From Salinibacterium amurskyense (GTDB taxonomy: Bacteria; Actinomycetota; Actinomycetes; Actinomycetales; Microbacteriaceae): a DNA stretch of 64,000 bases. The notes beneath the pieces were generated by a model, which ran no database searches, was not told where the DNA came from, and saw nothing but the letters and a program-made list of their open reading frames with translations. The position numbers and the translations under genes are program-made. Where the stretch lies: assembly GCF_002797685.1 (NCBI RefSeq), contig NZ_PGFH01000001.1, positions 1,798,001 through 1,862,000 of the forward strand, in the 5' to 3' direction. Shown here piece by piece: positions 10,545-27,333 of this stretch. Every line of letters begins with the position of its first letter. Positions within the stretch are counted from its first letter, which is position 1.

Positions 10545-10589
10545 TCCTTAATCTTGCAGCGTCTCCTCAATCGTAGCGATCACGGAACA

Positions 10590-10624
10590 GAAGGCGCGCC
10601 TCTCCCCACGAGAGACGCGCCTTC
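10590..10624 (-). terminator. Terminator of the IclR operon
   Basis: GAAGGCGCG (10590-10598) pairs with CGCGCCTTC (10616-10624) and an inner CTCTC/GAGAG extends the stem. It lies 24 bases after the stop of the FAH-family gene, the last gene of the long minus-strand operon. Confidence 0.75.
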
Positions 10625-10647
10625 ATCACAGAAGCAACGAACGCGAG

Positions 10648-11493
10648 CTACGGAGCCACGCACTCCTGAGACATCGTTCCCAACCCGGTAATTGCGCTGC
10701 GCACAACTTCGCCCGCGCGCAAATAGCGAGGCGGGTTCTGGCCGAAGCCGACGCCGGGCGGTGTGCCGGTAAAGATCACATCGCCGGGGCGCAACTCGAC
10801 AATGGCCGAGAGTTCACTGACGAGTCGCGGTACCGAAAACACCATGTCGTTCATCGGTGCGCTCTGCACGAGAGCATCGTCAATCCAACATTCGAGAGTG
10901 ATTTCTGACTGCTGCAGAAAGCTCTCCGTGTCGACGAACACTGGCCCGAGCGGTGCGAACCCCGTGAACGACTTACCGAGCGAGAACTGCGGTGGCACTC
11001 CTCGCATCTGCACGTCGCGCGCCGAATAGTCCTGGCCAATGCAGAAGCCTGCGATTGCCGCGAATCCGTCTGCTTCGGCGATGTTGCGACCGCCCGCGCC
11101 CACGACAGCAACCAGCTCAACTTCCCAATCGACACTGTCGGTCGGCAATACGAGCGGTTCGAACGGACCCGAGATCGACGACGCAAACTTCGTGAAAACC
11201 ATCGGATGTTCCGGGACGTTAAACCCGGACTCCGCAGCGTGATCAACGTAGTTGAGTCCGACCGCAAAAATCTGCTGCGGGGCGTGCGCGAGCGCACCCC
11301 ACTGAGCGGGTTCAAGCGCGGCCTCGCTACGGTCGCTTGCTACGGCATCCGCCGCCCACGCCTGAAACGGTGCCCAGTCCCGGTAGAGCTCGTCGACCGT
11401 GGCCGAGAATCGACCAGCACTCGCACGCTCGATATCGACAACGGTGCCGTCGACGAGGAGCGATGCTCGGCCGTCAATGACTGCGAGACGCAT
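10648..11493 (-). CDS. Fumarylacetoacetate hydrolase-family protein
   Basis: FAH-family enzyme of 281 aa, last gene of the IclR operon. Metal-binding acidic residues are visible in DWEVELVAVVG, and the family motifs IFAVGLNYVDHAAE, GFCIGQDYSARDVQ, GKSFTGFAPLGPVF and GDVIFTGTPPGVGF are in order. Members hydrolyse C-C bonds, or decarboxylate or hydrate 2-oxo acids. In this operon it could act on a keto acid made from the imported amino compound, which is inference. It starts two bases after the RidA stop, so the two are co-translated. Confidence 0.9.
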   Translation of the reverse strand: MRLAVIDGRASLLVDGTVVDIERASAGRFSATVDELYRDWAPFQAWAADAVASDRSEAALEPAQWGALAHAPQQIFAVGLNYVDHAAESGFNVPEHPMVFTKFASSISGPFEPLVLPTDSVDWEVELVAVVGAGGRNIAEADGFAAIAGFCIGQDYSARDVQMRGVPPQFSLGKSFTGFAPLGPVFVDTESFLQQSEITLECWIDDALVQSAPMNDMVFSVPRLVSELSAIVELRPGDVIFTGTPPGVGFGQNPPRYLRAGEVVRSAITGLGTMSQECVAP

Positions 11494-11495
11494 TG

Positions 11496-11873
11496 CTACT
11501 TCGCGGGAAGCGCGACGATCGCGTCGAGCTCGACGTCGAAGCCACGAAGGTTGGCCTGAATCGTCGTGCGCGCCGGGAGCGGTGCCGTGAGGAACTCTGC
11601 CGCGATCTCGTTGAACTCAGCGAAGTCATCGAGGGTCTTGAGGTACACGCCGTAGCGCACGGTGTTCTCAAGGCTCGTGCCGGCAGCCTGAGCAACGGTC
11701 TCGAGGTTGCGGAAGGTCTGGCGAACCTGCTCAGCGAAGGTCTCGCCGACGCGGTTGCTGTCTTTGTCGAACGGGCCCTGACCGGCAAGAAACACGAGCG
11801 AGCCTGCGACGACGGCAGAGCTGTAGGTGCCGGCGGGCTGAGGAGCGTCTGGGGTGGTGATTGCGTGGAACAT
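11496..11873 (-). CDS. RidA-family enamine/imine deaminase
   Basis: RidA/YjgF protein of 125 aa. GTYSSAVVAGSLVFLAGQGP, the segment VRYGVYLKTLDDFAEFNEI and the Arg in PLPARTTIQA (which binds the substrate carboxylate in the family) are present. RidA hydrolyses reactive 2-aminoacrylate-type enamines to 2-keto acids. Its place in the same operon as a D-serine dehydratase-like enzyme makes sense, since dehydration of a beta-hydroxy amino acid releases such an enamine. It starts 36 bases after the last transporter gene. Confidence 0.9.
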   Translation of the reverse strand: MFHAITTPDAPQPAGTYSSAVVAGSLVFLAGQGPFDKDSNRVGETFAEQVRQTFRNLETVAQAAGTSLENTVRYGVYLKTLDDFAEFNEIAAEFLTAPLPARTTIQANLRGFDVELDAIVALPAK

Positions 11874-11909
11874 TGATGCCTTTCTTTGGGGTTGGTTGGG
11901 GTGCCCGCA

Positions 11910-12725
11910 CTAAGCCGTGCGGGGCTGATCGCCGTGAAGGCGAGGAACTGACGCAAGAAGTTTCTTGGTGTAGTCGTGCTGAGGTGAGGTAAGGATGTCG
12001 GCGGCCGCGCCTGATTCGACGACTTCACCGTGATACATCACGTAGACGTAGTCGCAGAAACGCGCGACAACGCCCATGTCGTGAGTGATCATGAGCACCG
12101 CCATTCCGCGATCGTCGGCGAGAGCACCGATGGTCTCAAGCACGGCTGCTTGCACGGTCACGTCGAGCGCACTCGTCGCTTCATCCGCAATCAGCAGTCG
12201 GGGTGACGATGCGATCGCCATCGCGATCATGACGCGTTGGCGCATTCCGCCGCTGAGCTCGTGAGGGTACTGACGGTAGACCGCGGCGGGGTTACGAATA
12301 CCGACCGCATCCAAACTCTCGATAACGAGAGCCTTGGCGGTCTTTCGCAGCTCGGGGCGGTGCGCCACGAGAACGTCGCGCACTTGGTGCCCTACTCGAA
12401 ACACCGGGTTGAGCACCGACATTGGGTCCTGGAAGATCATCGAGGCTTGCGCACCGCGGACGCCTTGGATCGCCGAGAGCGGCGCTTTGAGAAGTTCACG
12501 ACCATCGAGAGTGATGGATGATTCCTCGCCATAGTGGGCGATTCGTTCGTCATTCAGGCGCAAGACCGACATCGCGGTGACCGACTTGCCGGAGCCCGAT
12601 TCGCCAATAATTCCCACGCGGGTGCCCGCCTCGACGCGAATGGAAACACCGCGCACCGCGGGAGGGGCGGATGCCGAGAACCGTACCGAAAGATCCCGGA
12701 TTTCTAAGAGTGCTTGGTCGCTCAT
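11910..12725 (-). CDS. Dipeptide-type ABC transporter ATPase (DppD/OppD-like)
   Basis: Nucleotide-binding subunit of a PepT-family importer, 271 aa. Walker A is GESGSGKS, the signature is LSGGMRQRV, Walker B is LLIADEATSALD and the H-loop is ITHDMG. It lacks the long C-terminal extension often found in OppD and ends at RLHGDQPRTA. The start overlaps the stop of the preceding ATPase gene by four bases (ATGA). It works as a heterodimer with that protein to drive uptake through the two permeases of this operon. Confidence 0.93.
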   Translation of the reverse strand: MSDQALLEIRDLSVRFSASAPPAVRGVSIRVEAGTRVGIIGESGSGKSVTAMSVLRLNDERIAHYGEESSITLDGRELLKAPLSAIQGVRGAQASMIFQDPMSVLNPVFRVGHQVRDVLVAHRPELRKTAKALVIESLDAVGIRNPAAVYRQYPHELSGGMRQRVMIAMAIASSPRLLIADEATSALDVTVQAAVLETIGALADDRGMAVLMITHDMGVVARFCDYVYVMYHGEVVESGAAADILTSPQHDYTKKLLASVPRLHGDQPRTA

Positions 12726-13564
12726 GCGCGGCTCCTCGTCACGTTGATCGGGCTAGTGAGATCGGGGTCGATCGACAGCGGACGATGCCGCGATGCAGGA
12801 TCGGGTTCAAGAACCGCTTCGATCAGGGCACGAGTGTAGGGATGTTGCGGGTTGCCGAATACCTCGTCAGACGTTCCGTACTCCACGATCTCCCCCAGGT
12901 ACATCACAGCGACTCGATGCGACATGGCACGCACGACGCCCAGATTGTGGGCGATAAACAGGTAGGCGATTCCTTGAGTGCGTTGAAGTTCTTGAAGCAG
13001 TTCGAGCACTTGGGCTTGCACCGAAACATCGAGCGCGCTGGTCGGTTCGTCGCAGACGATCAGCGACGGGCTAACGCCAAGCGCCCGGGCGATCGCGATG
13101 CGCTGGCGTTGACCACCGGAAAACTCGTGCGGGTACCGGCCGGCCATCTCCGCCGACAGCCCTACTTGCTCGAGCAGCTCGCCCACGCGGGCGGCGGCAC
13201 CGGAGCGCGGCACGATCTTGTGCACCAGCATGGGCTCCGCGATTTGCCGCCCGACCGTCATCCGCGGGTCGAGTGTGGCGTACGGGTCTTGGAAGATCAT
13301 CTGCAGGTCGCTGCGGATAGCGCGCATGCGGGTCGGTGTCACTTCGGCAAGGTTCTCACCTTGGTACGTGATGGTTCCTTCGAAAGGCATCAATCCGAGC
13401 ACGGCGCGCGCGACGGTCGACTTGCCCGACCCCGATTCGCCCACAAGCCCGACCGTCTCGCCGGCGGCGAGGGACAGCGAGACCTTATTGACGGCGGGCT
13501 TAGCGTTGCCCGTGCCATAGCGAACCGTGAGGTCTGAGATTTCTAGTAACGGTGAAGGGGTCAT
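12722..13564 (-). CDS. Dipeptide-type ABC transporter ATPase (DppF/OppF-like)
   Basis: Second nucleotide-binding subunit, 280 aa. It has Walker A GESGSGKS, FSGGQRQRIAIARALGVSPS, Walker B LIVCDEPTSALD, and the OppF-type end NPQHPYTRALIEAVLEPDP. It overlaps the deacylase gene upstream (ATGA) and the second ATPase gene downstream, so transporter and deacylase are translationally linked. The specificity depends on the lipoprotein encoded at 17017-18525. Confidence 0.93.
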   Translation of the reverse strand: MTPSPLLEISDLTVRYGTGNAKPAVNKVSLSLAAGETVGLVGESGSGKSTVARAVLGLMPFEGTITYQGENLAEVTPTRMRAIRSDLQMIFQDPYATLDPRMTVGRQIAEPMLVHKIVPRSGAAARVGELLEQVGLSAEMAGRYPHEFSGGQRQRIAIARALGVSPSLIVCDEPTSALDVSVQAQVLELLQELQRTQGIAYLFIAHNLGVVRAMSHRVAVMYLGEIVEYGTSDEVFGNPQHPYTRALIEAVLEPDPASRHRPLSIDPDLTSPINVTRSRA

Positions 13565-15132
13565 GCTGTTCTCCTTCTCAAGACGTGGCCAGGCAATTCA
13601 TGGGTGTGACGGCCGTCGCGCACTACCCGGACGCCGTTCACAAAAACGTGGGCGATTCCTTGCGGTGCTTCGAGTGGGGATGCGTAGGTTGCCCGGTCCG
13701 CAACGGTTGACGCGTCGAAGACCGTGACGTCAGCGCACGCACCAACCGCGAGCACGCCGCGGTCACTAAAGCCCAGTCGAGCTGCCGGCTTCGCAGTCAT
13801 CTTGTGCACGATCTCCACGGTGGTCATGCCAGCACGCGAGAGTTCGTCGAACGAACGCGGGAAGGTACCGATCGACCGCGGATGAGGCAGATTGGCATCG
13901 TGGGTCAGGCTCAGGGCGAGCCCATCCGATGCCACAGAAACGAGCGGATGCTGCAGCACCCGGAGTGCGTCGACGGGACGCGTGCCGACGATGATCACAT
14001 CAACGTTGAGATCGTTCGCGCTGAGGAGTTCCACGGCGAGAGAACCCCACGACTCGTGGCCTGAATCAGCAACTAGATCCGCGAGAGTTCTGCTCACCGC
14101 GAGCGGATTTGCTGAGGCCTTAGCCACCGTAATGGCCTCCGGTGGAAACCCTGCCGCCGACTCAAGCATCTCGGCAACGGCAGCCGGAGCATCCGCAATG
14201 CGTTGGGCGATCTCGGCCACGGGAAGTGCCCGCAGCTCGGTCGGCAACAGTTGAAGCATCGTGGTGTGACCGGCAAGATACGGATACGCATCGGCTTGCA
14301 CATCGCCGTTCGCGTTCTCGACGAGGGCGATCGCGGCGTCGAGGGCGCTGCCATCGTCGTCACGGATCGAGCGAAAGTGCGAAATTTGCAGGCGAGCTCC
14401 CGAGGTCTCAGCAATCTGCAGGGCCTCAGTCACCGCATCCGCCAGTCCGTCGCTGTCGTACGCGCGCATGTGCATGCTGAGCAGAGCATTGTGTTGAGCA
14501 ACTGAACGCGCAAGTTCAGTGAGTTCGTCGACTGGGCTGAGTTCGCCCGGCGAATACATGAGACCCAAGCTCAAGCCCCACGCGCCCGCCGCTAGAGCCT
14601 CGTGCAGCTCGGCAACCATGGTCGCGCGGCGATCGTCATCGTGATGGGGGTCTAGCCCGACTCTGGTTTGAGCGGCAAGCACGATAGTTCCGTGCCCCAC
14701 TAGAGGTGCCACGTTCGTCGCCGCCGGTGTGGCATCGAGCGCGGCAAAGTACTCACTCACCGAGTTCCAGCTCACTTTGACATCCGCGACGATGTCTACG
14801 GGCCCGATAATCGCCCGAACGTCGTCGGGGTTGCCGCGAATCGGCGCCGGGCTCAAACCACAATTGCCAATCACTTCGGTGGTGATGCCCTGCAGCACGC
14901 GTGATTCACATTCCGGGTACGCAAAGCGGGTGAGATCGGAGTGCGTGTGGATGTCGATGAATCCCGGTGCCACGATGAGGCCTGTGCAGTCGACCACCAC
15001 GTCGGCATCGCCCTCGGGGAAGTGCCCGATGCCGGCGATCTTTCCGTCGGCGATCAGAACGTCGGCGTCGAGAAGTGGGGCGCCGGTTCCGTCGGCAACC
15101 TGACCTCCGCGCAGCAGCGTGACGGGGGTCAT
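13561..15132 (-). CDS. N-acyl-D-amino-acid deacylase family amidohydrolase
   Basis: Amidohydrolase of 523 aa in the D-aminoacylase family. Metal ligands appear in GFIDIHTHSDL, the bridging cysteine in EVIGNCGLSPAP, and further family signatures in SLGLMYSPGE and QISHFRS. The family removes acyl groups from N-acyl-D-amino acids, or cleaves related cyclic or dipeptide-like amides. The gene is inserted between the permease and ATPase genes of a peptide importer and overlaps both by four bases, strong evidence that it acts on the imported compound. It has no signal peptide, so it acts in the cytoplasm. Confidence 0.9.
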   Translation of the reverse strand: MTPVTLLRGGQVADGTGAPLLDADVLIADGKIAGIGHFPEGDADVVVDCTGLIVAPGFIDIHTHSDLTRFAYPECESRVLQGITTEVIGNCGLSPAPIRGNPDDVRAIIGPVDIVADVKVSWNSVSEYFAALDATPAATNVAPLVGHGTIVLAAQTRVGLDPHHDDDRRATMVAELHEALAAGAWGLSLGLMYSPGELSPVDELTELARSVAQHNALLSMHMRAYDSDGLADAVTEALQIAETSGARLQISHFRSIRDDDGSALDAAIALVENANGDVQADAYPYLAGHTTMLQLLPTELRALPVAEIAQRIADAPAAVAEMLESAAGFPPEAITVAKASANPLAVSRTLADLVADSGHESWGSLAVELLSANDLNVDVIIVGTRPVDALRVLQHPLVSVASDGLALSLTHDANLPHPRSIGTFPRSFDELSRAGMTTVEIVHKMTAKPAARLGFSDRGVLAVGACADVTVFDASTVADRATYASPLEAPQGIAHVFVNGVRVVRDGRHTHELPGHVLRRRTA

Positions 15133-16007
15133 GAGCGACGCCGCCGTCTCATGGGGTTGGCCGATTCAGCGATAAGTTCGCCAGCGAACATCAGCACGGC
15201 AGCGACGAAGGTGATGACAAGGCCGGCCGAGATCGCGTACCAGGGTGACGTGACGTAGTAGTTCTTCGAAGCCTCGAGGATCGTGCCCCACGTGGAGGCG
15301 GGCAAATCGACGCCCAAACCGAGATAGCTCAGACCGGCTTCGATCAGGATGGCTTCCGCCATGAGCGTGGGGATCAGCGTCAGCAGAGGGCCGGCGGAGT
15401 TGGGAAGCACGTGGAGACCCAAGATTTGAGTCGGTCGCACTCCCCCGACCCGCAGCGCTGTGACAAACTCGCGCTCCTTGAGACTGCGCGTTTGCGCTCG
15501 CATCAAGAGAAAGACGCGAGGGAAGAAGAGGAACCCAATAATGACCGTGAGCGAAAGGCTCGTGGTGCCGAAGCTCGCGACCATCAGAATGGCGAAGAGC
15601 ACGAGAGGGAAAGCGAGCGTCGCCGAAGCGACACTCGTGAACGCGCCATCCACAAACCGTCCTGCGTTTCCGGCGATGAGGCCGGTGGGAAGGCCGATGA
15701 CGAGAGCCACGAGAACGCTGCCCGCCGCGATGACGAGTTCGAGCTGAGTGGAGTAGACCAGTCGAGCCCAAACGTCGGCTCCCGCTTCATCCGTTCCCAA
15801 CGGATGCGCGAAGCTCGGAGACAACAGAATGGACGACGCGTCAATCGCCGATGGCGAGTACGGGCTGAAGAGCGAGGGCCAGACTGCCATGAAGAGGGCG
15901 ATTACGCCGATGACAATGAGAGAGAGTCTCGCGGGGCCGACGGCGGCAATAGCAGCGAAGGTGCGCGACAGGGGTGTTCCGCTCGTGCGGGGTTCGGTGA
16001 GTGTCAT
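15129..16007 (-). CDS. Dipeptide-type ABC permease (DppC-like)
   Basis: Membrane subunit of 292 aa. It has an N-terminal OppC-like segment (FSPYSPSAIDASSILLSPSF, then AHPLGTDEAGADVWARLVYS), five to six helices, and the EAA loop region around ALRVGGVRPTQILGLHVLPN. It overlaps the partner permease and the deacylase by four bases each. With the DppB-like partner it forms the translocation channel. Confidence 0.92.
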   Translation of the reverse strand: MTLTEPRTSGTPLSRTFAAIAAVGPARLSLIVIGVIALFMAVWPSLFSPYSPSAIDASSILLSPSFAHPLGTDEAGADVWARLVYSTQLELVIAAGSVLVALVIGLPTGLIAGNAGRFVDGAFTSVASATLAFPLVLFAILMVASFGTTSLSLTVIIGFLFFPRVFLLMRAQTRSLKEREFVTALRVGGVRPTQILGLHVLPNSAGPLLTLIPTLMAEAILIEAGLSYLGLGVDLPASTWGTILEASKNYYVTSPWYAISAGLVITFVAAVLMFAGELIAESANPMRRRRRS

Positions 16008-16963
16008 TCTGTGATCCTCGGGTCGACGAGACGGTAAGCGAGGTCTGCAAGGTAACCAACGAGCAGCACCACAATCGTGGTGAGCAAGACGGCGCCCTGC
16101 ACTACTTGGTAGTCACGGTTGAGAACGCTCGAGAGTAGGAGTTGGCCGATACCGCCGAGGCCAAAGACGGCCTCCACGAGCACGGCACCTCCGACGAGCG
16201 CTCCGATCTGTACTCCCACGATCGTGATCATCGGAGTGACAGCATTACGCATGGCGTAGACGAAGACGCGGCGCGGTGTCGAAATGCCCATGGCCAGTGC
16301 CGTGCGCATGTAATCCTGGCGGAGAACGTCGGAGGCTTCGGCATAGACGAAGCGCGTCAGCACTCCCCCGAGGAAGATCGCCAGCGTCGTGACCGGCAGA
16401 ATCATCTGGATGAAGAACTCTCCGAAGTCGTCGAAGGGGCTGGTGAATCCACCGGACGGCAAAATGTCGAGCGTGACCGAGAAAATGATGATGAGGAACA
16501 GTCCGAGCCAGACTGCGGGAATCGCGATCGCCAATGTCGTAACCAGACGCACTGCCCGGTCGACGATTCCATTGCGGAAATACGCAGCGGCCATTCCGAA
16601 GATGATGGAGAGCGGTACCGCAATGAGCACGGCTCCCAGGATGAGGAACAACGTGGGCGGAACAGCGCCCGCTACGAGTTCAACGACGGCAACCCCGCTG
16701 CGGCTTGAGACTCCAAAGTCTCCGCGCAGGATGTCGCCAAGCCAGATTCCATACTGAACCGGCCAGGGCTGGTCGAGCCCCATTTCTGTTCGTAGCCGGG
16801 CCAGCGTTTCCGCCGCATCCGGACGCCCCGCCTGGGGACCTAGCAGCAGAACTGCTGGATCCCCAGGGGTGAGCCGAAGAGCGAGGAAGGCGAACACCGA
16901 GACGAACCACAAGACCACGGCGAGCTTTGCCGCCTCTATTCCTGCGCGTCGCATGATTTTCAC
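16004..16963 (-). CDS. Dipeptide-type ABC permease (DppB-like)
   Basis: Membrane subunit of 319 aa of the OppB/DppB type: N-terminal helix with LRLTPGDPAVLLLGPQAG, then about five further helices and ALAMGISTPRRVFVYAMRNA as the EAA loop. Translation starts at a GTG with GGGAGG upstream. It follows the binding-protein gene after 53 bases and overlaps the next permease. Confidence 0.92.
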   Translation of the reverse strand: MKIMRRAGIEAAKLAVVLWFVSVFAFLALRLTPGDPAVLLLGPQAGRPDAAETLARLRTEMGLDQPWPVQYGIWLGDILRGDFGVSSRSGVAVVELVAGAVPPTLFLILGAVLIAVPLSIIFGMAAAYFRNGIVDRAVRLVTTLAIAIPAVWLGLFLIIIFSVTLDILPSGGFTSPFDDFGEFFIQMILPVTTLAIFLGGVLTRFVYAEASDVLRQDYMRTALAMGISTPRRVFVYAMRNAVTPMITIVGVQIGALVGGAVLVEAVFGLGGIGQLLLSSVLNRDYQVVQGAVLLTTIVVLLVGYLADLAYRLVDPRITE

Positions 16964-17016
16964 GATGCTGCCTCCCTCGTTTCTTCTTCGTGTTGCGTGC
17001 TGTGTCGTGCGCGGTG

Positions 17017-18525
17017 TTACTTGCTGACGGTGACCTGCGAGAGCAGAGCCCAGCCGAGCGGGTTGACCTCGTAGCCCGAGACCTCCGGACCAGCGATCGA
17101 CGCAACCGGGGTCGACTGCACGATCATGATGGGGAGTTCGTCAACGAGAATCTGCTGGAGTTCGCCGTAGAGCTCGCCCCGAGTTGCCTCGTCAGAGACG
17201 CGGGTAGCGTCAAGCACGAGATCGGATACCGTCTGGTTCTGGTAGTCGTCCGCAAGGTGCGGAGTCATGATGATGTCGAAGAAGGAGTGGGGGTCCGCTC
17301 CAACGTTGAACACATTCCAGGTGGCGTCATAGCCGCGGCTCACGTAAGCGTCGAGCCAGACCGAAATTTCAGTGATGTTGACGTTCAAGGTCACACCGAT
17401 TTCAGCCAAGGATGCCTGCCAGACGCGGGCGAGCTGTTCAGCTTCCGGGAAGCCGGAAGGTACTTCGAGCGAGAACTCGAGGTCAGACTCGCCAGCAGCA
17501 GCGAGCATTGTCGCGGCCTTATCGAGGTCGTACTCGTAGCCATCCTGCGCGGAGTAGGCCCAGCTGCTCTCAGGCAATGGGCTCCAGCTGCTCGAGCCTC
17601 CGCCACCGTAGGCGATTTCCCGAATGGAGTCCTTGTCGAGGGCGTGAGCCAGAGCCTGGCGCACCATCGGGTCAGCAAGCTTGCCCGAAGAGTTGAACTC
17701 GATCAGCGAGAGGCTGTTCGATGCCACCGGCTCCACGAGGGCGGCACGGTCGGCGTCGAGCTGCGACACCGTTGCGGCTGATGCGCTGGCGAGAATGTCA
17801 ACGCTTCCGCTGTAGAGATTGTTGAGCGCGACCTGCTGGTCGGCGATCGGCTGCAGTCGAAGCGTTTCCGTCGGCGATACATCGCCGAAGTAGTCATCGA
17901 AGCTGGTCAGCACGATCTCGGTGTTCGCCGTCCAGCTCTCGAACTCGTAGGGGCCTGAACCTACGGGCTCTGAGGTCGCTGTGTCGAAGCTCGAAGGAGC
18001 GACAATCGCGATCGATGCGAGACCCGCGAGGAACGTGGCATCCGGGTTGTTGAGTGTGATGACGACCGTCGACTCATCCGTTGCCTCGTACGAGGCGACG
18101 TCGGCAAGACGGCCCGACCAGATCGAGTCTTCTGCTGTGCCGGCGCGCTCCATCGAAGCGATGACGGCATCAGCGTCAACTGAGGTTCCGTCGTGGAATA
18201 CGGCATCCGGCGCTAGGCTGAACGTGAACACCGTTGCGTCTTCGTTTACCTCGTACGTCGCGAGATCGGGCTGAAGCTTCAGCTCGGCGTCGTAGTCGAC
18301 GAGAGACGAGAACACGAGCTCACGAATCGCAAATTCGAAGATGATGAGCTGATTGGTGTGAGGATCGAAGTTGTCAATGTCGCCCGCCAGAGCTACGACT
18401 ACCTCATCCTTGATCGCTGCTGAGTCGTCATTGCTTGATGACTCAGCAGCGCATCCTGTAAGCACGAGCGAACTTACTGCGGCAAGGCCGATCAACGACC
18501 GACGCCATGGTGACTTGTTACTCAT
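17017..18525 (-). CDS. ABC transporter substrate-binding lipoprotein (SBP_bac_5)
   Basis: Solute-binding protein of 502 aa with a lipoprotein signal (SSLVLTGC, lipidated Cys25). The mature protein follows the oligopeptide-binding pattern: DIDNFDPHTNQLI, PDLATYEVNEDATVFTFSL, FHDGTSVDADAV and MVRQALAHALDKDSIREIAY. It captures the substrate for the Dpp-type permeases encoded downstream. Peptide-binding proteins of this family also take sugars, nickel and opine-like compounds, so the ligand is open. AAAGG precedes the start. A 64-base spacer separates it from the upstream enzyme genes. Confidence 0.92.
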   Translation of the reverse strand: MSNKSPWRRSLIGLAAVSSLVLTGCAAESSSNDDSAAIKDEVVVALAGDIDNFDPHTNQLIIFEFAIRELVFSSLVDYDAELKLQPDLATYEVNEDATVFTFSLAPDAVFHDGTSVDADAVIASMERAGTAEDSIWSGRLADVASYEATDESTVVITLNNPDATFLAGLASIAIVAPSSFDTATSEPVGSGPYEFESWTANTEIVLTSFDDYFGDVSPTETLRLQPIADQQVALNNLYSGSVDILASASAATVSQLDADRAALVEPVASNSLSLIEFNSSGKLADPMVRQALAHALDKDSIREIAYGGGGSSSWSPLPESSWAYSAQDGYEYDLDKAATMLAAAGESDLEFSLEVPSGFPEAEQLARVWQASLAEIGVTLNVNITEISVWLDAYVSRGYDATWNVFNVGADPHSFFDIIMTPHLADDYQNQTVSDLVLDATRVSDEATRGELYGELQQILVDELPIMIVQSTPVASIAGPEVSGYEVNPLGWALLSQVTVSK

Positions 18526-18589
18526 TGCGCTACCTTTCTGTTACTTCTCTTGGTTGGTGCAGGGGTGTTACTAGTGACCCGCTGGCTGG

Positions 18590-19702
18590 TTAATGCCTAC
18601 CGACGGGATTCCAGATGTCGACGACGTCACTGCCTTCGACGACGTGTACGCGGCTGAACATGTTCACGACGCCACACGCATGATTAGGGATGATTCGAAC
18701 TCGGCTTCCGAAGCCGAGTTCGTCAATGCCGGTTCCGTTGAGGATGCCGTGCTCTTCGTAGGCGCGCTCGAAGACGATGTCGTCAGCGAGGGCCCCTTCG
18801 GGAGCCGTCACGAGCCCCAAGGTGTCGCCGCGGTTAGAGCGGTCGGAGCTCATCGCCTTGATGCCCGCATCAATGACGCGACGATCGGCAGCGGGAACGC
18901 TCACCACGGTGCTGAGAACCGTAATGGCGCACTGTGCGCTCAAAGCCGATCCGAGTCGGAATTGGTTGGCGTCGAAGAAGACGTAGGTTCCAGCGCGGGC
19001 TTCGGTGACACCAGCTACGCGCGGTGCAGATTCCCAGCCGGGCGTCGAGCCCACTGAGACCACCGAGATGGTGTGACCGGATGCTCGCAGCTGTTCCGCT
19101 ACAGCAACCAACGACGAGGCGGCGCCCGTTCCAGCCGCGACGATCTCGTCGCGAGTGCCCTTAAGGCTGGCAAGCTGGCCCTCGTGCATGTAGACGCCAT
19201 CGAGCAGGATGCCCGGTAGGGCGGCGATTTCAGCCGCGACGTCGTCCGCTGCGGCGGCCAGCACTCCGGTACGAGCGAGGCCAGTGTCGATCTCCAGGAT
19301 GACCGGGATCGTAGAGTCGGCCGCCACTGCAGCCTGAGACAGCACTGCAGCGAGTTCGACCGAGTCGATTCCGACCGCTAGGCGCGCGGTGTGGTTGGCC
19401 TCGGCGGCAAAGCGAGCCTTCTGAGCAGAAGCCGGAGCGTTCGCCCAGAAGACGTCGTTGATTCCCGCAGCGAGCAAGGCTTCGGCCTCCGCCATCGTTG
19501 CGCAAGTGAATCCAATAGCGCCGGCCTGCAACTGCAGCCGAGCGACTTCTATCATTTTCGAGGTCTTGAAGTGAGGACGAAGAGCAACCTCCGCCTTCAC
19601 CGCGAACTCCGCCATCATGCTGATGTTGCGCATCATCTGCGCGCGATCGATCAGCAACGCCGGAGTCTCCACAGAATCGAACAGGGTGGGGCTGAAGGTC
19701 AT
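18590..19702 (-). CDS. PLP enzyme, D-serine dehydratase/D-threonine aldolase family
   Basis: Fold-type III PLP enzyme of 370 aa. The alanine-racemase-like domain carries the PLP lysine at about K46 (LRPHFKTSK). The C-terminal D-serine-dehydratase-like domain has the metal site NHAC (about H341 and C343). In this family H-x-C is the zinc pair of eukaryotic-type D-serine dehydratase, whereas D-threonine aldolases usually have H-x-D. It may therefore eliminate water from a D-beta-hydroxy amino acid. GAGGAG precedes the start at 19702, and the gene overlaps the upstream TIM-barrel-like protein gene (ATGA). Substrate identity is inference. Confidence 0.85.
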   Translation of the reverse strand: MTFSPTLFDSVETPALLIDRAQMMRNISMMAEFAVKAEVALRPHFKTSKMIEVARLQLQAGAIGFTCATMAEAEALLAAGINDVFWANAPASAQKARFAAEANHTARLAVGIDSVELAAVLSQAAVAADSTIPVILEIDTGLARTGVLAAAADDVAAEIAALPGILLDGVYMHEGQLASLKGTRDEIVAAGTGAASSLVAVAEQLRASGHTISVVSVGSTPGWESAPRVAGVTEARAGTYVFFDANQFRLGSALSAQCAITVLSTVVSVPAADRRVIDAGIKAMSSDRSNRGDTLGLVTAPEGALADDIVFERAYEEHGILNGTGIDELGFGSRVRIIPNHACGVVNMFSRVHVVEGSDVVDIWNPVGRH

Positions 19703-20919
19703 GATCCGCTCCTCATCATGTCGGCGGCTTCCCGAATCCACGAGAGTGTCGGTGCGGTTGCGGTGCCGTAGTTGTAGAGAGCGAGCTTGCTCACGCCCGA
19801 ACCGCGGATGGCATCTACCTTCGACAGAAAGCTGTCTTTCGTCGGGTGGAAACTGGGCCAGAGAGTGATCGCGGAGGCCAGAGACTCTGCTCCACGATCG
19901 GAGAGCGCGGCCGCGGCGAGAGTGTGGTCGAGTTCACGAGCAACCTCGCCAGCGGTCGGATAGTAGCTTTCGAGAACGAAAGAGTCGGCGACAGCAACAC
20001 TCGCTGCGACATCCACACCCTCCATCCAATTGCTGAAGGCGGGGCGACCCCAGACTGCGGCACTGAGATCGAGCACTGCGCCCTTGGCGCGGATCTCGCG
20101 GGCAACGCGGCCAGCGAGCTCGGTGACCACGTCGTTACGCATGCGGGTGTAGGCCGCAAGATCGGGCCACATCATGTGAAGCGACGCGATTTCGGCACCA
20201 TCATCGGCGTCGCGACCGGCGGGTGCGTCGGCATTCCAGGTGCGGTGAAGTTCGTTCGAGACCCGAAGCCGAAGGGCTCCAACGTCGATTCCGCGGGCTG
20301 TTCCCTGTTCTCGACAGTGGCTGCAGAAGCACAGTGAGAGAAGGTAGCGCGTGGTCGGGTCGAGGCGGGCGCCCCACAGTTCGTGGGGATGACCGTGGTT
20401 GTAGAGCAGGTACGAGAGACTCTCGACCAACACACGATCGAACAGTCCCGAGCCGGCGATCTCCCCCACAAGCTCAACCGCGTATTGCTGAGCCGCAGGG
20501 TTTGCTGGGCACAGTCCATGGGTGAACGCGTCGCCGAAACAGTTCTTGATTGCTGCTTCGGGATGCTCGGTCGCCATCGTGGTGTTGTGGAATGCAATGC
20601 CCCAACCACTGAGCGAAACGCCCGCGGCATCCGCAGCACGCTTGAGCGAGGGATAGAGATCCGGATGCTCGGTCGCGATGGAGGAGGGCGGTACGACCAA
20701 GCCGCTGAAGTTGTTGAAGCCGAGGGGCAAGTGACTCGTGTTTGCTTCCGCCACCGTCGAGACACGGTCGAGGCGGCGAGGAGAGATGACCTCAGCCGAG
20801 TGATAGGCGGTGGCGATGACGAGGCGGTCGACACCGAGTTCGGCAACCGTCTCGACAACGCGTTCAGCGCCGTCGGCGATGACGTCCCAGGGGTAGATGA
20901 GCAGCGATACTTCAGACAA
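19699..20919 (-). CDS. Uncharacterised protein, probably TIM-barrel
   Basis: Protein of 406 aa that I cannot assign. It has alternating strand-helix spacing as in a (beta/alpha)8 barrel: VSLLIYPWDVIADGAERVVE, VDRLVIATAYHS, FDRVLVESLSYLLYNHGHPH and ADSFVLESYYPTAGEVARE. LCFCSHCREQG (C-x-C-x2-C) could bind a metal; similar CFCxHC motifs occur in glycosidase-like proteins of unknown activity. It overlaps the oxidoreductase gene upstream by 8 bases and the PLP-enzyme gene downstream by 4, so it is an integral part of the pathway. It is possibly a hydrolase or isomerase; this is a guess. Confidence 0.75.
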   Translation of the reverse strand: MSEVSLLIYPWDVIADGAERVVETVAELGVDRLVIATAYHSAEVISPRRLDRVSTVAEANTSHLPLGFNNFSGLVVPPSSIATEHPDLYPSLKRAADAAGVSLSGWGIAFHNTTMATEHPEAAIKNCFGDAFTHGLCPANPAAQQYAVELVGEIAGSGLFDRVLVESLSYLLYNHGHPHELWGARLDPTTRYLLSLCFCSHCREQGTARGIDVGALRLRVSNELHRTWNADAPAGRDADDGAEIASLHMMWPDLAAYTRMRNDVVTELAGRVAREIRAKGAVLDLSAAVWGRPAFSNWMEGVDVAASVAVADSFVLESYYPTAGEVARELDHTLAAAALSDRGAESLASAITLWPSFHPTKDSFLSKVDAIRGSGVSKLALYNYGTATAPTLSWIREAADMMRSGS

Positions 20920-21856
20920 CGGGAACCTCCTGATAAATCTGTTCGATTAGTTCGAGAGTGGGTTCGAGATCGTCGAGCCCAAAGCCCGCTTCCTCGTCGC
21001 GAAAGCTCGTCCACTGGCTGATGAACGGTGCTCGATCGATGTTGATCGACGGGCCGCTGCGCTCAACGCCGATAGCCGAGATCGACCACGAGCCATCCAT
21101 ATAAATGCGAGCTGTTCCTCTGGTGCCCATCACGATGAGCCCTGTGCCAATCGGGTCGAACGGCACCCACGACATATCGATGGATGCAATGGTCGATTCC
21201 CCGACGCGAGCGATCACGCTCGCGTGGTCTTCGGTCTCGTGGCTGGGGTTCACACGCTTGAGCGCTGCGGTGTGGAACTGCAACTCCTCACCGAGGATTG
21301 CGCGAGCACGATCGAAGGCATGCACGCCATTCGTCACAAGCACTCCCCCGCCGCTGACAGCGGAGTTGAAGTACCACCCGGGAAGGCTGTCCTCTTCGAG
21401 GTGAAACTGCATGCGGTCGTTGTAGGTGAGAATCTCGCCGAGTTCTCCGTCAGCGACGGCACTAACCACAGCTTTTACGCCGGCCCAGTGGCGAGTGGAC
21501 ATTCCGACGAAGAGTCGGCCACCTGTGCGAAGAGCGTCACGCAGCAGTGCAGGATCTTGCCCAGGAACACGATGGGGTTTTTCCACGAGAACATCGAGCC
21601 CCGCCGCTACCAGCTCTGTCGATTGCACAAGGTGCCCGGCAGAGGGAGTGGCGATGATCGCGCTATCGAGGTCGTGCTCCTGAGCAAGCGCCTCCTGCAC
21701 GGAGGTATAGGTACTAGCACCCGAATCAACGGCGCTAGCTCGCGCCAGATCCGTGTCGACGACAGCAGCAATCTGGTCACCAACAGCACGAACTGCAACG
21801 GCGTGACGGTGACCCATCACCCCCGCTCCGACGACAAGAACCCGGCGCGCACTCAT
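20912..21856 (-). CDS. Gfo/Idh/MocA-family oxidoreductase
   Basis: NAD(P)-dependent dehydrogenase of 314 aa. The Rossmann motif is RVLVVGAGVMGHRHAVAVRA and the family motif is VLVEKPHRVP, followed by a C-terminal beta-sheet domain (GWYFNSAVSGGGVLVTNGVH, then AFDRAR). Such enzymes oxidise hydroxyls of sugars, inositols and related compounds, or reduce imines. It overlaps the genes on both sides. In this operon it could oxidise a hydroxylated intermediate, but no substrate can be named. Confidence 0.9.
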   Translation of the reverse strand: MSARRVLVVGAGVMGHRHAVAVRAVGDQIAAVVDTDLARASAVDSGASTYTSVQEALAQEHDLDSAIIATPSAGHLVQSTELVAAGLDVLVEKPHRVPGQDPALLRDALRTGGRLFVGMSTRHWAGVKAVVSAVADGELGEILTYNDRMQFHLEEDSLPGWYFNSAVSGGGVLVTNGVHAFDRARAILGEELQFHTAALKRVNPSHETEDHASVIARVGESTIASIDMSWVPFDPIGTGLIVMGTRGTARIYMDGSWSISAIGVERSGPSINIDRAPFISQWTSFRDEEAGFGLDDLEPTLELIEQIYQEVPVV

Positions 21857-23160
21857 GCGAAAATTCCTTCGCTCTTCATTTCCTGCAGCACCTCGCGAGC
21901 GGCCTCAAGCGTGAGGTCGATGTCCGCTTCGGTGTGCGCGAGCGAAATGTGGTTGCGCTTGAGCGTCATGGGGTACATCACAAAGCCACGGTCGGTCATC
22001 CGGCGGTGGAAGGTGGCGTAAGCAACGTCGTTGTTCTCCAGAAGGTCGTTGTAGCTCTTGGGCTCACGATCCATGAAGTAGCAGATGAAGACGCTGCCGA
22101 GGCCCGTCACGTGAGCTGCAATGCCGAGCTCAGTGGTGATGTCGCGAAGCCCATCCCGCATCCGAGCGCCGAGGCGGCCGGTGTACTCGTGCATTCCCAC
22201 TTCGGGATCACTGGCGACCGTCATGGTGGCGATTGCTGCGGCCATCGAGACGGGGCCGCCGTTGAACGTACCGGCGAGCATGACGCCACCGCCAGCGGAC
22301 GAGAAGTTGTCCATGAGATCAGCGCGACCGCCTAGCCCGGCTACGGCGAAACCGTTGCCCATCGACTTGCCATAGCTGGTGAGGTCGGGGGTGATTCCGC
22401 AGAGCTCTTGGTAGCCACCGGGAGCGTGACGGAAGCCAGTGATGACCTCGTCAAAGATCAGGATGCTTCCCTCGGCCTTGGTGATCTCTCGTAGCCCTTC
22501 CAAGAAGGACTGGTCGGGAAGCAGCGCGCCAACGTTATGCGGCACGGGTTCGAGGATGATCGCTGCGATCTGATCTGGGTAGCGCTCGTAGAGGGCGCGA
22601 ACCGAGTCGAGGTCGTTGAAGTCAGCGACAAGCGTGGAGCCCAGAGCGTCTTCGAGGATTCCGGTGGAAAGCGGGTCAACGGTTCCGATGCGGTCGGCCG
22701 GCGACGCGACGTTGCGAGCAACGGCATCTCCCCAACCGTGGAAGCAACCCTGGAACTTGAGGAGGTACTTGCGGCCGGTGACGCCACGAGCGAGTCGCAC
22801 GGCCTGCATCGTGGCTTCGGTGCCGCTCATTGTCGTGACGGATTTTTCAACCGAAGGGATGAGTTTCGCGACCATGCGAGCAACCTCTACTTCGAGTTCG
22901 CTCACGCCCAGACCTACGAGGTCGAGACCGTTCAAGCTCTGGGTGACGGCGGCCGTGACACGCTCGTCGGAATGTCCCAACAAGATGGCACCGAATGCTG
23001 CGTGGTAATCCACGTAACGGCGACCGTCGTAGTCCGTCAGGTAAGCCCCCTGAGAATCGCGGAAGGCATACGGCGCACCAAAGTTCCGAGTTGCCGAATT
23101 CACTCCTCCTGGAATAAATTCTTTGGCTTCGCTGATCAGCGCAGCGGCTGTCCTAGGCAC
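21853..23160 (-). CDS. Class III aminotransferase, HemL-like
   Basis: PLP enzyme of about 435 aa, similar to glutamate-1-semialdehyde aminomutase (FIPGGVNSATRNFGAPYAFR, SGTEATMQAVRLARGVTG, FDEVITGFR, PLP lysine at about 265 in YGKSMGNGF). Its place in a catabolic operon and its divergence from HemL argue against tetrapyrrole synthesis. Relatives in such operons act as transaminases, epimerases or aminomutases. I chose the GTG at 23160, which has AAAGGAG nine bases upstream, over the ATG at 23199, which has no ribosome-binding site. It overlaps the oxidoreductase gene by ATGA. Confidence 0.88.
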   Translation of the reverse strand: MPRTAAALISEAKEFIPGGVNSATRNFGAPYAFRDSQGAYLTDYDGRRYVDYHAAFGAILLGHSDERVTAAVTQSLNGLDLVGLGVSELEVEVARMVAKLIPSVEKSVTTMSGTEATMQAVRLARGVTGRKYLLKFQGCFHGWGDAVARNVASPADRIGTVDPLSTGILEDALGSTLVADFNDLDSVRALYERYPDQIAAIILEPVPHNVGALLPDQSFLEGLREITKAEGSILIFDEVITGFRHAPGGYQELCGITPDLTSYGKSMGNGFAVAGLGGRADLMDNFSSAGGGVMLAGTFNGGPVSMAAAIATMTVASDPEVGMHEYTGRLGARMRDGLRDITTELGIAAHVTGLGSVFICYFMDREPKSYNDLLENNDVAYATFHRRMTDRGFVMYPMTLKRNHISLAHTEADIDLTLEAAREVLQEMKSEGIFA

Positions 23161-23205
23161 GGTATCTTGCTCCTTTTTCATCGATTGGGTAGTCATCACG
23201 GCGGG

Positions 23206-24060
23206 CTATTTGGCGAGCCGTGGGTCAGGGATCTCGAGAAGTGAAAGAGCATCCTGGTGAAGGATCGACTCGACAGTTTCTTCGAGAACGTGGGGCAGGT
23301 TGCCCGCACGGAAGTCGGCGAGAGAGCGGAAACGCGCAATCGCGTCAGCCGGCTCCCACAGCGGGTAGTCGCTGCCGAAGAACAACTTGTTAACGACGCC
23401 CCACTCTTGGGCATTGACGAGAGCCATGAAGCCATCCATCGGGCGGTGCCAGCTCGCGGATACATCGGCGAAGACGTTGGCGTGCTTGCGCAAAACGACA
23501 ACGGCGTCGCGCTGCCACGGGTGCCCCATGTGCGCCATGATCTGCTTGAGATCTGGATGCCGGCGAGCAACTTCTTCGACAACGAGCGGTTGGCTGAGCG
23601 AGAGTCGGCCCTGCGCACTGGGCGTCGCACCCATGTGCCAGAGGATGGTCATCCGTCGCTCGGAGCAGAGTCGGTAGAACTCATCGAATGAGGGGTCGAG
23701 CGGATCGAAGAGCGACAGAACTGGATAGAGCTTGACGCCCTTGAAACCGAGCTCATAGGCCTCGTCAAGCTGGTCACGCCAGTCGGTGTCGAGCGGGTCG
23801 AGCGCGGTGAAGGCAACCGTCGGCGTTGACAGCTGAGCGCAGTAGTCCGCCACGAACCGGTTCGGAGTGTGCACCCCGGCACGTGTGGCGGCAAGACCGA
23901 AGACAATGGCGACATCGACGCCAGCCTTTGTCATCGCAGCGTCGTACATAGCGGGAGAGATACGCGGGTACGGCTCACCGTACGCGGGCTCCCAGTTCTT
24001 CTTGTGCTCGTCGCCCCAGTGTTCGGGCTGGTGGTTGTGAGTGTGGACATCAACGATCAT
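23206..24060 (-). CDS. Amidohydrolase_2-family hydrolase
   Basis: TIM-barrel metal-dependent hydrolase of 284 aa. It starts with MIVDVHTH, whose two histidines are the first metal ligands, and contains ILWHMGATP, QIMAHMGHPWQRDA and KLFFGSDYPLW with the catalytic aspartate. The family includes lactonases and decarboxylases. AAAGGAG precedes the ATG at 24060, which excludes a much longer reading frame. The start lies inside the end of the IclR gene (11-base overlap), so regulator and enzyme are co-translated. Confidence 0.9.
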   Translation of the reverse strand: MIVDVHTHNHQPEHWGDEHKKNWEPAYGEPYPRISPAMYDAAMTKAGVDVAIVFGLAATRAGVHTPNRFVADYCAQLSTPTVAFTALDPLDTDWRDQLDEAYELGFKGVKLYPVLSLFDPLDPSFDEFYRLCSERRMTILWHMGATPSAQGRLSLSQPLVVEEVARRHPDLKQIMAHMGHPWQRDAVVVLRKHANVFADVSASWHRPMDGFMALVNAQEWGVVNKLFFGSDYPLWEPADAIARFRSLADFRAGNLPHVLEETVESILHQDALSLLEIPDPRLAK

Positions 24061-24874
24061 GGTTTTCTCCTTTTCGCTGGCCGCCGCGCTCAGCACGGAA
24101 GGCGGCAACAAATCGTGGGTCGGCGGCAAGCTCGGCCGCCACATCGTGAACGCGCTGCGAGAGTGCTTCGCGCAGCTCGGGGGCAAGCTCGCCGGCGGGG
24201 CCTGAGACGCTGATCGCGACAGGAACGTCCAGCCCCAGCGGGATAGAAACAGCGAGGCAAATGACGCCGAGGTCACGTTCCTGGTCATCGAGGCTGTAGC
24301 CACGTTCGCGAATGGTGGCGAGGTTCGCATCCATCTGCTCGCGGTTTACGATCGTGTACTCCGTGAAGCGGGCATACGGCTCTTCAGGCAGGTGCTGGGC
24401 GATCTGGTCGACCGGGATCTCTGAGAGCAACATCTTTCCGATGCCCGTGCAGTAGGTGTAGTCGAGCGAGCCATCACGCGACCGGAACCGCAACGGACGG
24501 TCTGGTTCTTGCACGCACAAGTGCAGCGCCCAACGCCCTTCAAGCACACCGAGGTTGGCGGTGAGGCCCGTCTCGTGAGCGAGAGTCTTCAAATACGGTG
24601 CGGCGACGTCAGCGGTGTTCGCGACTCGACGGTACGACTCGGAGATGTCGAGCACCGCGTGCCCCAGTGCGTACACCGGCGGGTCACCCTCGCGGTAGAC
24701 GAAAGCCTCCTGTTCGAGCACCGAAAGCAACCGGATGAGGGTCGACTTCGGGAGTTCGAGCTCGACTGATAATTCAGCGAGGCTGAGCGCTTTCTCCTGC
24801 GCGCCGAGCACCTTGAGCACTTTGAGAGCCTTGACTAGCCCCTGTGAATGATACGACGTGGCACTGCGTTCCAT
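24050..24874 (-). CDS. IclR-family regulator
   Basis: IclR-type regulator of 274 aa, first gene of the operon running to 10648. The N-terminal winged helix includes LSLAELSVELELPKSTLIRL and LSVLEQEAFVYRE. The C-terminal GAF-like effector domain includes YTYCTGIGKMLLSEIP and ERGYSLDDQERDLGVICLAV. It is probably a repressor that releases the operon when a pathway compound binds. TAGAGT ends seven bases before the ATG, so it looks leaderless. A perfect inverted repeat sits just upstream of the -35 region. Confidence 0.92.
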   Translation of the reverse strand: MERSATSYHSQGLVKALKVLKVLGAQEKALSLAELSVELELPKSTLIRLLSVLEQEAFVYREGDPPVYALGHAVLDISESYRRVANTADVAAPYLKTLAHETGLTANLGVLEGRWALHLCVQEPDRPLRFRSRDGSLDYTYCTGIGKMLLSEIPVDQIAQHLPEEPYARFTEYTIVNREQMDANLATIRERGYSLDDQERDLGVICLAVSIPLGLDVPVAISVSGPAGELAPELREALSQRVHDVAAELAADPRFVAAFRAERGGQRKGENHDR

Positions 24875-24881
24875 GTGAGGG

Positions 24882-24910
24882 ACTCTATCCAGCGGGTTGT
24901 CAAAAGTGAA
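24882..24910 (-). promoter_or_regulatory. Promoter of the IclR operon
   Basis: TTCACT (24905-24910) and TAGAGT (24882-24887) are 17 bases apart on the minus strand. The -10 hexamer ends seven bases before the IclR start codon, which suggests a leaderless transcript. Confidence 0.6.
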
Positions 24911-24913
24911 GCA

Positions 24914-24933
24914 CATGGAATGTTAATTCCATG
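24914..24933. promoter_or_regulatory. Probable IclR operator
   Basis: CATGGAATGTTAATTCCATG has perfect 8-bp arms around GTTA. TGGAA/TTCCA half-sites are typical of IclR-family operators. A further half-site, TTCCATGTG (24870-24878), overlaps the IclR start codon and is the reverse complement of CACATGGAA at 24912-24920. The repeat borders the -35 element. Confidence 0.75.
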
Positions 24934-25079
24934 TTGCGCGACGTGGAACTCAGCGGCCCTCGTTGAGTCGAGAAAATGTCGCCAGGGCCGCTTCCCAGTG
25001 ATTGCCCCGAATGCGGGGATTGTCTTGAGAGAGCCTCACCAGAAGACTGAGAAGAACTTTTTTTCCCGAGGAGACCACA

Positions 25080-26138: not shown

Positions 26139-26172
26139 TCGCGAAACTTCGCTACGACAGCGCAATCGGTGG

Positions 26173-27222: not shown

Positions 27223-27333
27223 CACTGCTATTCAACGCCCCTGAGTCGTGGATATTCCTGAAAGCGCCGCATCCCGTCGCCGCGCACTGGCCCACCCGCG
27301 CGGTGGGACGTTCGCACTCAATAGACTGGGGCA

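Follow-up and report, generated by a model that had tools for sequence, protein, structure and literature searches.

Which compound is handled by the fourteen genes that fill positions 10648-24874, all on the minus strand, of a stretch of the Salinibacterium amurskyense genome (GCF_002797685.1, contig NZ_PGFH01000001.1, positions 1,798,001-1,862,000)? This stretch of 64,000 nucleotides is called the window below, and coordinates are counted within it. The genes form a real, conserved and apparently mobile operon, in which the known logic of a deacylase, a pyridoxal phosphate (PLP) enzyme and a RidA protein is used in a new assembly that includes an unnamed enzyme family. Our tentative answer, to which we give a probability of about 0.45, is that this is a regulated mobile operon for the uptake and catabolism of an N-acylated D-2-amino-3-hydroxy acid, most likely derived from a sugar. 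The original prediction, made from the sequence alone, had proposed an N-acylated or D-configured amino compound and overlooked the evidence for a sugar, namely the glycosidase-like fold predicted for the unnamed protein, the sugar-acid enzymes, and the sugar-type importers around its relatives.

Gene content

All 14 open reading frames of the predicted series are present, and its start and end were found to be correct. Pfam matches were obtained for 13 of the 14 proteins and agree with the families first listed, the exception being the unnamed protein P0006, referred to as TIM. Neighbouring genes are spaced by -11 to +64 bases, and the repeated short overlaps noticed earlier were counted as six overlaps of 4 bases. 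The order of transcription is IclR, AH2 (an Amidohydro_2 protein), HemL-like, Gfo/Idh, TIM, DSD (the PLP enzyme), DppA, DppB, DppC, DAA (the D-aminoacylase-like protein P0003), DppD, DppF, RidA and FAH. The genes are listed here by coordinate (lengths in amino acids, aa; ABC, ATP-binding cassette; SBP, solute-binding protein).

10648..11493, minus strand: FAH-family hydrolase, 281 aa (P0001); PF01557 7.5e-60; PDB 6v77 2e-78, 8gsr 2e-40
11496..11873, minus strand: RidA-type protein, 125 aa (P0002); PF01042 4e-26; TIGR00004 102.8 bits, just below the cut-off of 106.25
11910..12725, minus strand: DppF-type ABC ATPase, 271 aa; PF00005 4e-23, PF08352 1.4e-6
12722..13564, minus strand: DppD-type ABC ATPase, 280 aa; PF00005 4e-32, PF08352 3e-9
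13561..15132, minus strand: D-aminoacylase-like amidohydrolase (DAA), 523 aa (P0003), within the importer genes; PF07969 4.6e-23; PDB 3gip, 1m7j, 9kb1 (PpOngB)
15129..16007, minus strand: DppC-type permease, 292 aa; PF00528 5.6e-22
16004..16963, minus strand: DppB-type permease, 319 aa; PF00528 6.8e-37, PF19300 2e-8
17017..18525, minus strand: SBP family 5 lipoprotein (DppA), 502 aa (P0004); PF00496 3e-72; nearest PDB chains AapF 7kz8, AgaA 6hlx
18590..19702, minus strand: fold-III PLP enzyme of the D-serine dehydratase family (DSD), 370 aa; PF14031 1.5e-20, PF01168 1.6e-26
19699..20919, minus strand: TIM, unnamed TIM-barrel family, predicted to be glycosidase-like, 406 aa (P0006); GH42 first in Foldseek; invariant residues
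20912..21856, minus strand: Gfo/Idh/MocA oxidoreductase, 314 aa (P0008); PF22725 1.7e-19, PF01408 5.5e-14
21853..23199, minus strand: HemL-like class-III aminotransferase, 448 aa (P0009); PF00202 6.8e-59; hemL model 381 bits
23206..24060, minus strand: AH2, Amidohydro_2 protein, 284 aa; PF04909 3e-31
24050..24874, minus strand: IclR-family regulator, 274 aa counted from the second in-frame Met; PF01614 3.9e-30, PF09339 2.6e-11; BhcR model 166 bits

Proposed pathway

The gene set, its character as one unit, its conservation and its motifs are observed; the substrate, the regulation and every reaction given in this paragraph are predictions. The family-5 ABC importer would take up an N-acylated D-2-amino-3-hydroxy acid, either an N-acyl-hexosaminate or a conjugate, and the glycosidase-like TIM may trim the conjugate; the relatives of the operon that lack TIM (two genomes) carry a PIG-L-family protein instead. 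DAA would strip the acyl group, the PLP enzyme would remove water to give an enamine, and RidA would aid its hydrolysis to a 2-keto-3-deoxy acid and ammonia. The Gfo/Idh protein could then oxidise the 2-keto-3-deoxy acid to a diketo acid, and the FAH hydrolase could cleave the latter into pyruvate and a shorter acid, the two enzymes together taking the place of 2-keto-3-deoxygluconate (KDG) kinase on the pattern of the non-phosphorylative rhamnonate route. The HemL-like aminotransferase and AH2 may act on side groups or lactones, which are the least certain steps. Control would be exerted by IclR from a palindrome before its own gene.

Deacylase, PLP enzyme and RidA

The nearest PDB entries of DAA are N-acyl-D-glutamate deacylase and D-aminoacylase, and that of DSD is D-threo-3-hydroxyaspartate dehydratase (6e-46). 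Aligned to 3wqc and 3anu, DSD keeps the PLP lysine stretch PH-x-KT and the H-x-C metal pair (NHAC), whereas the aligned D-threonine aldolase 4v15 has H-x-D. The H-x-C pair was found in all 16 aligned dehydratase rows of the TIM loci (window included) and in loci L158, L159 and L161. This pair is of the dehydratase type, and elimination is therefore favoured over aldol cleavage; of the two reactions offered by the original prediction, elimination is retained and aldol cleavage is rejected. RidA proteins hydrolyse the enamine products of dehydratases.

The likeness of the IclR protein to BhcR (166 bits) and of the PLP enzyme to BhcC (153 bits) led us to consider a variant beta-hydroxyaspartate cycle (glyoxylate assimilation). 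These scores are far under the cut-offs of 350 and 690, the metal pair is H-x-C as against the H-x-D of the aligned D-threonine aldolase (BhcC itself not being in the alignment shown), the aminotransferase is of class III, and the imine reductase family was matched by 0 of the 14 genes. This extremely improbable variant was rejected as largely refuted.

The core of the operon resembles the ong cluster of Pseudoalteromonas prydzensis, which serves the catabolism of N-acetylglucosaminate (GlcNAc1A), a form of oxidised chitin. As reported for that cluster, OngB deacetylates GlcNAc1A, and OngC, which accepts D-serine and D-threonine as well, forms KDG and ammonia from glucosaminate (GlcN1A). Both enzymes were assayed there; growth requires OngB, OngC and also OngD, a RidA protein whose role is given as unknown (PMC9537276). 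As in ong, a regulator and an importer share the cluster with a D-aminoacylase-like deacylase, a fold-III PLP lyase and a RidA partner. The TIM protein takes the place of the ong hexosaminidase, the regulator is IclR instead of MurR/RpiR, and the importer is of Dpp type instead of an SSS symporter. Where ong has a sugar kinase, the operon has the Gfo/Idh and FAH proteins, with the HemL-like enzyme and AH2 added. Pfam and NCBIfam scans of the 14 genes found no sugar kinase, hexosaminidase, SSS symporter or MurR/RpiR regulator.

The earlier statement that no described pathway has this set stands for the complete assembly and falls for its deacylase/PLP lyase/RidA core, which is that of ong (PMC9537276): searches of one open-access literature collection for the gene set or its chemistry gave nothing relevant beyond the work on the ong cluster (PMC9537276, PMC12017989). 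The likeness suggests that the deacylase/PLP lyase/RidA scheme known from the use of oxidised chitin extends beyond chitin.

Related operons without TIM

Of the 396 genomes covered within the order, 4 have close homologues of AH2 (E <= 1e-25); the window's is one of them, and identity is 67-79% in the other three. In G463 and G579, which belong to one genus of another family, 13 of the 14 gene families recur on one strand in a different order (IclR, AH2, HemL-like, DAA, Gfo/Idh, FAH, five Dpp genes, a PIG-L-family protein, DSD, RidA). Identities are 49-51% for IclR, 67% for AH2, 63-66% for the HemL-like enzyme, 40-42% for DAA, 33-35% for FAH, 47-49% for DSD and 64-67% for RidA; the Gfo/Idh gene of G579 was detected by Pfam, not by tblastn. 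Seven families recur in G449 (IclR 53%, AH2 79%, HemL-like 69%, RidA 73%, Gfo/Idh, DAA 38%, DSD 37%); the stretch also has another IclR gene and a pair of permeases, of which one is nearest to UgpA (124 bits, below the cut-off of 335), and no Dpp match.

The prediction that an importer, a deacylase, a PLP enzyme for D-amino acids and RidA form one conserved unit is supported. The check first proposed, conserved co-occurrence of TIM, the HemL-like enzyme and the PLP enzyme, succeeded in part. Three more genomes of the order have RidA and the PLP enzyme close to the HemL-like enzyme, and no TIM was found in the stretches covered there. Conversely, 14 other loci (leaving aside the sister operon L040, described below) have TIM near the PLP enzyme, and the HemL-like enzyme was seen at none of them.

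Comparison within Salinibacterium

A scan of contigs with TIM found one near-identical relative, in Salinibacterium sp. SWN248 (L040), where the complete operon is present in the same order. Identity of the two DNA sequences per 500-base block is 92-99% across the operon (88% in one block) and 67-86% in the aligned blocks outside it, with edges near 10,500 and 25,000. The rate of synonymous substitution (dS) is 0.07-0.29 for the genes of the operon, as against 0.82-0.86 for two genes flanking it, of which one was covered over 168 codons only. The ratio of nonsynonymous to synonymous rates (omega) is 0-0.118 in the 14 genes, and no gene contains an indel. The lack of indels, the low omega and the joint recurrence of 13 of the 14 families elsewhere place the series beyond chance. 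Selection has kept the operon intact.

Among 27 genomes of the genus, the HemL-like gene is present at 99% identity or more in two, the window's and G1070 (next best 42%); from its coordinates we infer that G1070 is SWN248. Both flanking regions (window 9954-10544 and 25080-27225) lie close together on one contig in 10 of the 27, the window's included, the spacing in the remaining 17 not being judgeable. The flanks are 14.5 kb apart in the window's genome and in G1070, and 106-255 bases apart, leaving an empty site, in the other eight (G1068, G1071, G197, G082, G145, G1072, G1066, G1065). Because the flanks are nearly adjacent in these eight genus mates, and because divergence changes near the operon's ends in the sister comparison, the operon is regarded as a discrete insert, a compact 14-kb unit absent from the same site in close relatives. 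It has probably moved as one unit, and its low divergence would fit a transfer after the split of the two Salinibacterium lineages.

The TIM protein

TIM has no match in Pfam or NCBIfam and no sequence match of note in PDB, where a profile search with the TIM alignment also gave none; Pfam GH42 was matched neither by TIM nor by the relatives scanned, and the TIM patterns had no match in viral contigs. Weak matches to GHL10 (4 of 15) and GHL6 (2 of 15) were obtained with single members (best E 0.0097). In a Foldseek search with a structure model, GH42 proteins came first and lacto-N-biosidases and PgaB lower (best E 2e-8, query TM-score about 0.5). The alignment of 49 rows has D12, H40, C137, C197, C199 and C202 invariant, and E166, at a strand end, in 48 of 49. 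A cysteine before and a CxCxxC motif after a strand-end glutamate form what we take to be the arrangement of the GH42 zinc site, and TIM matches this pattern with C137, C197, C199 and C202 in 49 of 49 rows. From the model and the alignment, TIM looks glycosidase-like, with a (beta/alpha)8 fold and a GH42-type cysteine site.

Counting the window's genome in each case, relatives of TIM, about 25-35% identical where measured, were detected in 12 of the 299 genomes searched within the family, in 10 of the 396 within the order, one of them weak, and in 20 of the 396 within the phylum, five of them weak. They were also found in 150 of 72,556 plasmid records, of which 112 are from Rhizobium and most others haloarchaeal. 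TIM represents an unnamed protein family of actinobacteria, rhizobia and haloarchaea, for which a testable role in the catabolism of amino sugars or D-amino acids can now be proposed.

The archaeal chitobiose route uses a PIG-L-family deacetylase and GlmA, and is not known to include acid or PLP steps. PIG-L-like and GH42-like proteins are also the variable parts of this operon family, where, in contrast, their activities are predicted from sequence or model. GlmA is described as an exo-glucosaminidase homologous to GH35 and GH42 (PMC6566704).

TIM clades and their neighbourhoods

The tree of 49 TIM proteins is split, at a branch with support 100/99, into clades of 21 and 28 rows; the window's TIM forms a long branch whose placement inside the second clade is unsure. 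With context labels assigned by hand from the neighbourhood listing, DSD, DAA or RidA is nearby in 0 of 21 members of the first clade, and at least one of them in 21 of 28 of the second, the window's included. The marker residues G17, D303, Y319 and Y384 are present in 27, 27, 28 and 28 of the 28 second-clade rows, and in 0, 1, 0 and 0 of the 21 others.

In the first clade, glucarate-dehydratase-like enolases (below cut-off) were found at L034 and L021, an ILVD/EDD dehydratase with a DHDPS-family protein at L083, and an SBP_bac_1 protein and IclR at L034; these contexts rest on few loci, and 3 of the ten proteins scanned gave no match (one of the ten, from the second-clade locus L016, is a 2-hydroxyacid dehydrogenase). 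By their gene families these loci look like sugar-acid operons. In this clade, to which L034, L021, L083 and their kin L013-L015, L020 and L037 belong, many members have an IclR gene close by.

At six rhizobial loci of the second clade (L045-L047, L072-L074), a DSD-family enzyme is accompanied by an amidohydrolase and a sugar-type importer, with an aspartoacylase-family deacylase near or inside the set, the families being Pfam-checked in L047 only; four of these six loci also list RidA. Four haloarchaeal plasmid loci (L043, L048, L049, L071) have in common IclR, a Ugp-type importer, a creatininase-family protein, TIM, an enolase-superfamily enzyme and an SDR protein. Three of them have RidA and the fourth does not; a fifth haloarchaeal locus differs. 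KDG kinase and 2-keto-3-deoxy-6-phosphogluconate aldolase are encoded in two of the three RidA-bearing loci (both Haloferax). On our reading, TIM would supply a dehydration that yields a 2-keto-3-deoxy acid, the compound dehydrated being a hydroxy acid for one clade and an amino acid for the other.

For a control comparison, 33 TIM loci were set against 40 other stretches. Counts were 6 against 0 for DAA, 6 against 0 for DSD, 7 against 0 for RidA, 12 against 0 for IclR and 10 against 3 for Gfo/Idh, and two or more of six core families were present in 8 against 0 (Fisher p about 0.001). The loci are not independent: among the 33, seven genomes belong to a single genus, one genome contributes two loci, and some contigs are short. 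The controls were drawn from the 25 of these genomes that have long contigs, so that the positives from G113, G101, G772, G899, G879 and G1012 have no control from their own genome. The plasmid TIM loci were chosen, not sampled, and are wider stretches (23-25 kb against 18-19 kb).

A bolder extension, unlikely when taken as a whole, would make the operon a second route for N-acylated amino-sugar acids, put together independently, with a non-phosphorylative diketo-hydrolase end, and spread by transfer among actinobacteria. TIM would then found a new glycoside-cleaving family, its two clades feeding sugar-acid dehydration by enolase or EDD enzymes for hydroxy acids, and by PLP lyases with RidA for amino acids.

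Importer and other enzymes

The FAH protein scores 166 bits with the model of 2,4-didehydro-3-deoxy-L-rhamnonate hydrolase, below its cut-off of 500; the FAH proteins of L089 and of G579 (L158) score 341 and 189 bits. The non-phosphorylative L-rhamnonate/L-fuconate route ends in a diketo-acid hydrolase, and its closing pair, a dehydrogenase and an FAH-family diketo-acid hydrolase, is the same as that proposed here. The operon differs in its entry via an amino acid, not via an aldonate dehydratase, and in the low score of its FAH protein. For AH2, the only solved structure nearby is that of an uncharacterised protein.

The HemL-like enzyme scores 381 bits with the hemL model (cut-off 527). A second copy, of HemL type and 34% identical, is encoded elsewhere in the genome, and a Glu near its C terminus is not kept in the operon enzyme. 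A role in tetrapyrrole synthesis was rejected on the score and on the presence of this other copy.

The nearest PDB chains of the lipoprotein P0004 are AapF (7kz8) and AgaA (6hlx), the latter presumably an opine binder, and its sequence places it in the peptide/opine type. Catabolism of an opine, an Amadori-type sugar-amino acid conjugate or an inosamine was considered on this ground, together with the best NCBIfam match of Gfo/Idh, to inositol 2-dehydrogenase (below cut-off), and with iolC and iolD beside one Rhizobium TIM locus. It is quite unlikely: the lipoprotein family is broad, and DppA scores too, lower down; opine oxidase or deglycase families were matched by 0 of the 14 genes; and a D-specific deacylase with a dehydratase would be unexpected for opines of L-amino acids.

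Genes of M81 (MlrC-type) metallopeptidases are found at the TIM loci L044 (by annotation) and L089 (by Pfam), with look-alikes recognised by eye at L042 and L090. Such neighbours of TIM relatives, and the Dpp-type importer, would suit the breakdown of a natural product or peptide containing D-amino acids, which we consider improbable, as no peptidase was found among the 14 genes nor in the subset of open reading frames scanned at L158 and L161.

Evidence bearing on the substrate

Several results weigh against a sugar-derived substrate and a glycosidase-like TIM. The structure model, made from three sequences, is modest (pLDDT 60, pTM 0.66), its Foldseek matches have root-mean-square deviations of about 9-12, and there is no second Glu among the columns kept in 90% of the TIM clade. 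No TIM match was obtained at 1e-8 in the AH2-HemL stretches of G463, G579 and G449. The PIG-L/LmbE-family proteins of the TIM-less operons of G579 and G463 (L158:17138-18451, L161:12834-13994) read HPAD in place of the usual motif HPDD and may therefore not deacetylate. Near TIM, there was no enrichment of FAH (2 against 1), HemL (1 against 0), AH2 (0 against 0), DppA, DppB and DppC (1 against 0 each) or DppD (4 against 7), and the type assigned to the lipoprotein points the same way. The genome has no LPMO_10 or GH18 match, and chitin oxidation by the organism itself was rejected.

To the same side belong residues of DAA. In the work on OngB, Ser292, which binds the C3-hydroxyl, and Gln298 are specific to OngB, and the other residues are strictly conserved with D-aminoacylases (PMC12017989). 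OngB numbering was carried over the aligned D-aminoacylase 1m7j (the Lys-Tyr-Ser-Thr spacing fits 254-285-291-292), not directly from PpOngB. DAA has Thr at Ser292, and Arg and His at the "strictly conserved" Lys254 and Ser291. It keeps Asp368, Arg379, Tyr285, Tyr194 and the metal-binding stretches, and loop lengths differ in the region of Gln298.

A pathway for simple N-acyl-D-amino acids (of D-serine, D-threonine or D-3-hydroxyaspartate) would need no sugar, with the extra enzymes processing side chains. N-acyl-D-amino acid utilisation pairs a D-aminoacylase with a D-amino acid deaminase, and shares with the operon the deacylase and the D-amino-acid PLP enzyme, with RidA. The trio is common in the order without TIM: among 16 DAA loci, hand-picked from matches in 57 of 198 genomes, DSD is present in 10, RidA in 12 and TIM in none, so that a plain N-acyl-D-amino acid is possible as substrate. 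The nearest structures of DAA and DSD and the Thr at Ser292 agree with it, as does OngC, which also deaminates D-serine and D-threonine (PMC9537276). It would leave unexplained the glycosidase-like TIM, the Gfo/Idh and FAH pair, and the sugar-type importers and sugar-acid genes around relatives; and, in contrast to simple utilisation, ten further operon families recur with the trio in G463 and G579. We favour a sugar acid over a plain D-amino acid, and judge the simpler pathway unlikely, though a serious alternative.

Two D-aminoacylase homologues in other genomes carry one in-frame stop each (G412:C23:76427-77998 and G304:C19:11505-13073).

Operon ends and regulation

Two features were located at the ends of the operon.

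10590..10624, minus strand: inverted repeat (hairpin) after the last gene, probable terminator; 15-base arms, 93% complementary
24913..24934, no strand assigned: palindrome ACATGGAAT-GTTA-ATTCCATGT (plus-strand reading), candidate IclR operator; perfect 9+4+9

The terminator proposed at 10590-10624 is a real inverted repeat with a stable fold (-39.5 kcal/mol and z -3.57 for an 81-nucleotide stretch), but it has no T run and is absent from the list of a terminator scan. A scan for sigma-70-like promoters in 10000-26000 found 0 (mean of 3.1 in shuffles). The palindrome precedes the IclR start, with an extra half site at 24869-24877 that covers the start codon, and may be the IclR operator. Its core pattern has a single exact match within the window, and it is identical in the sister operon of Salinibacterium sp. 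SWN248.

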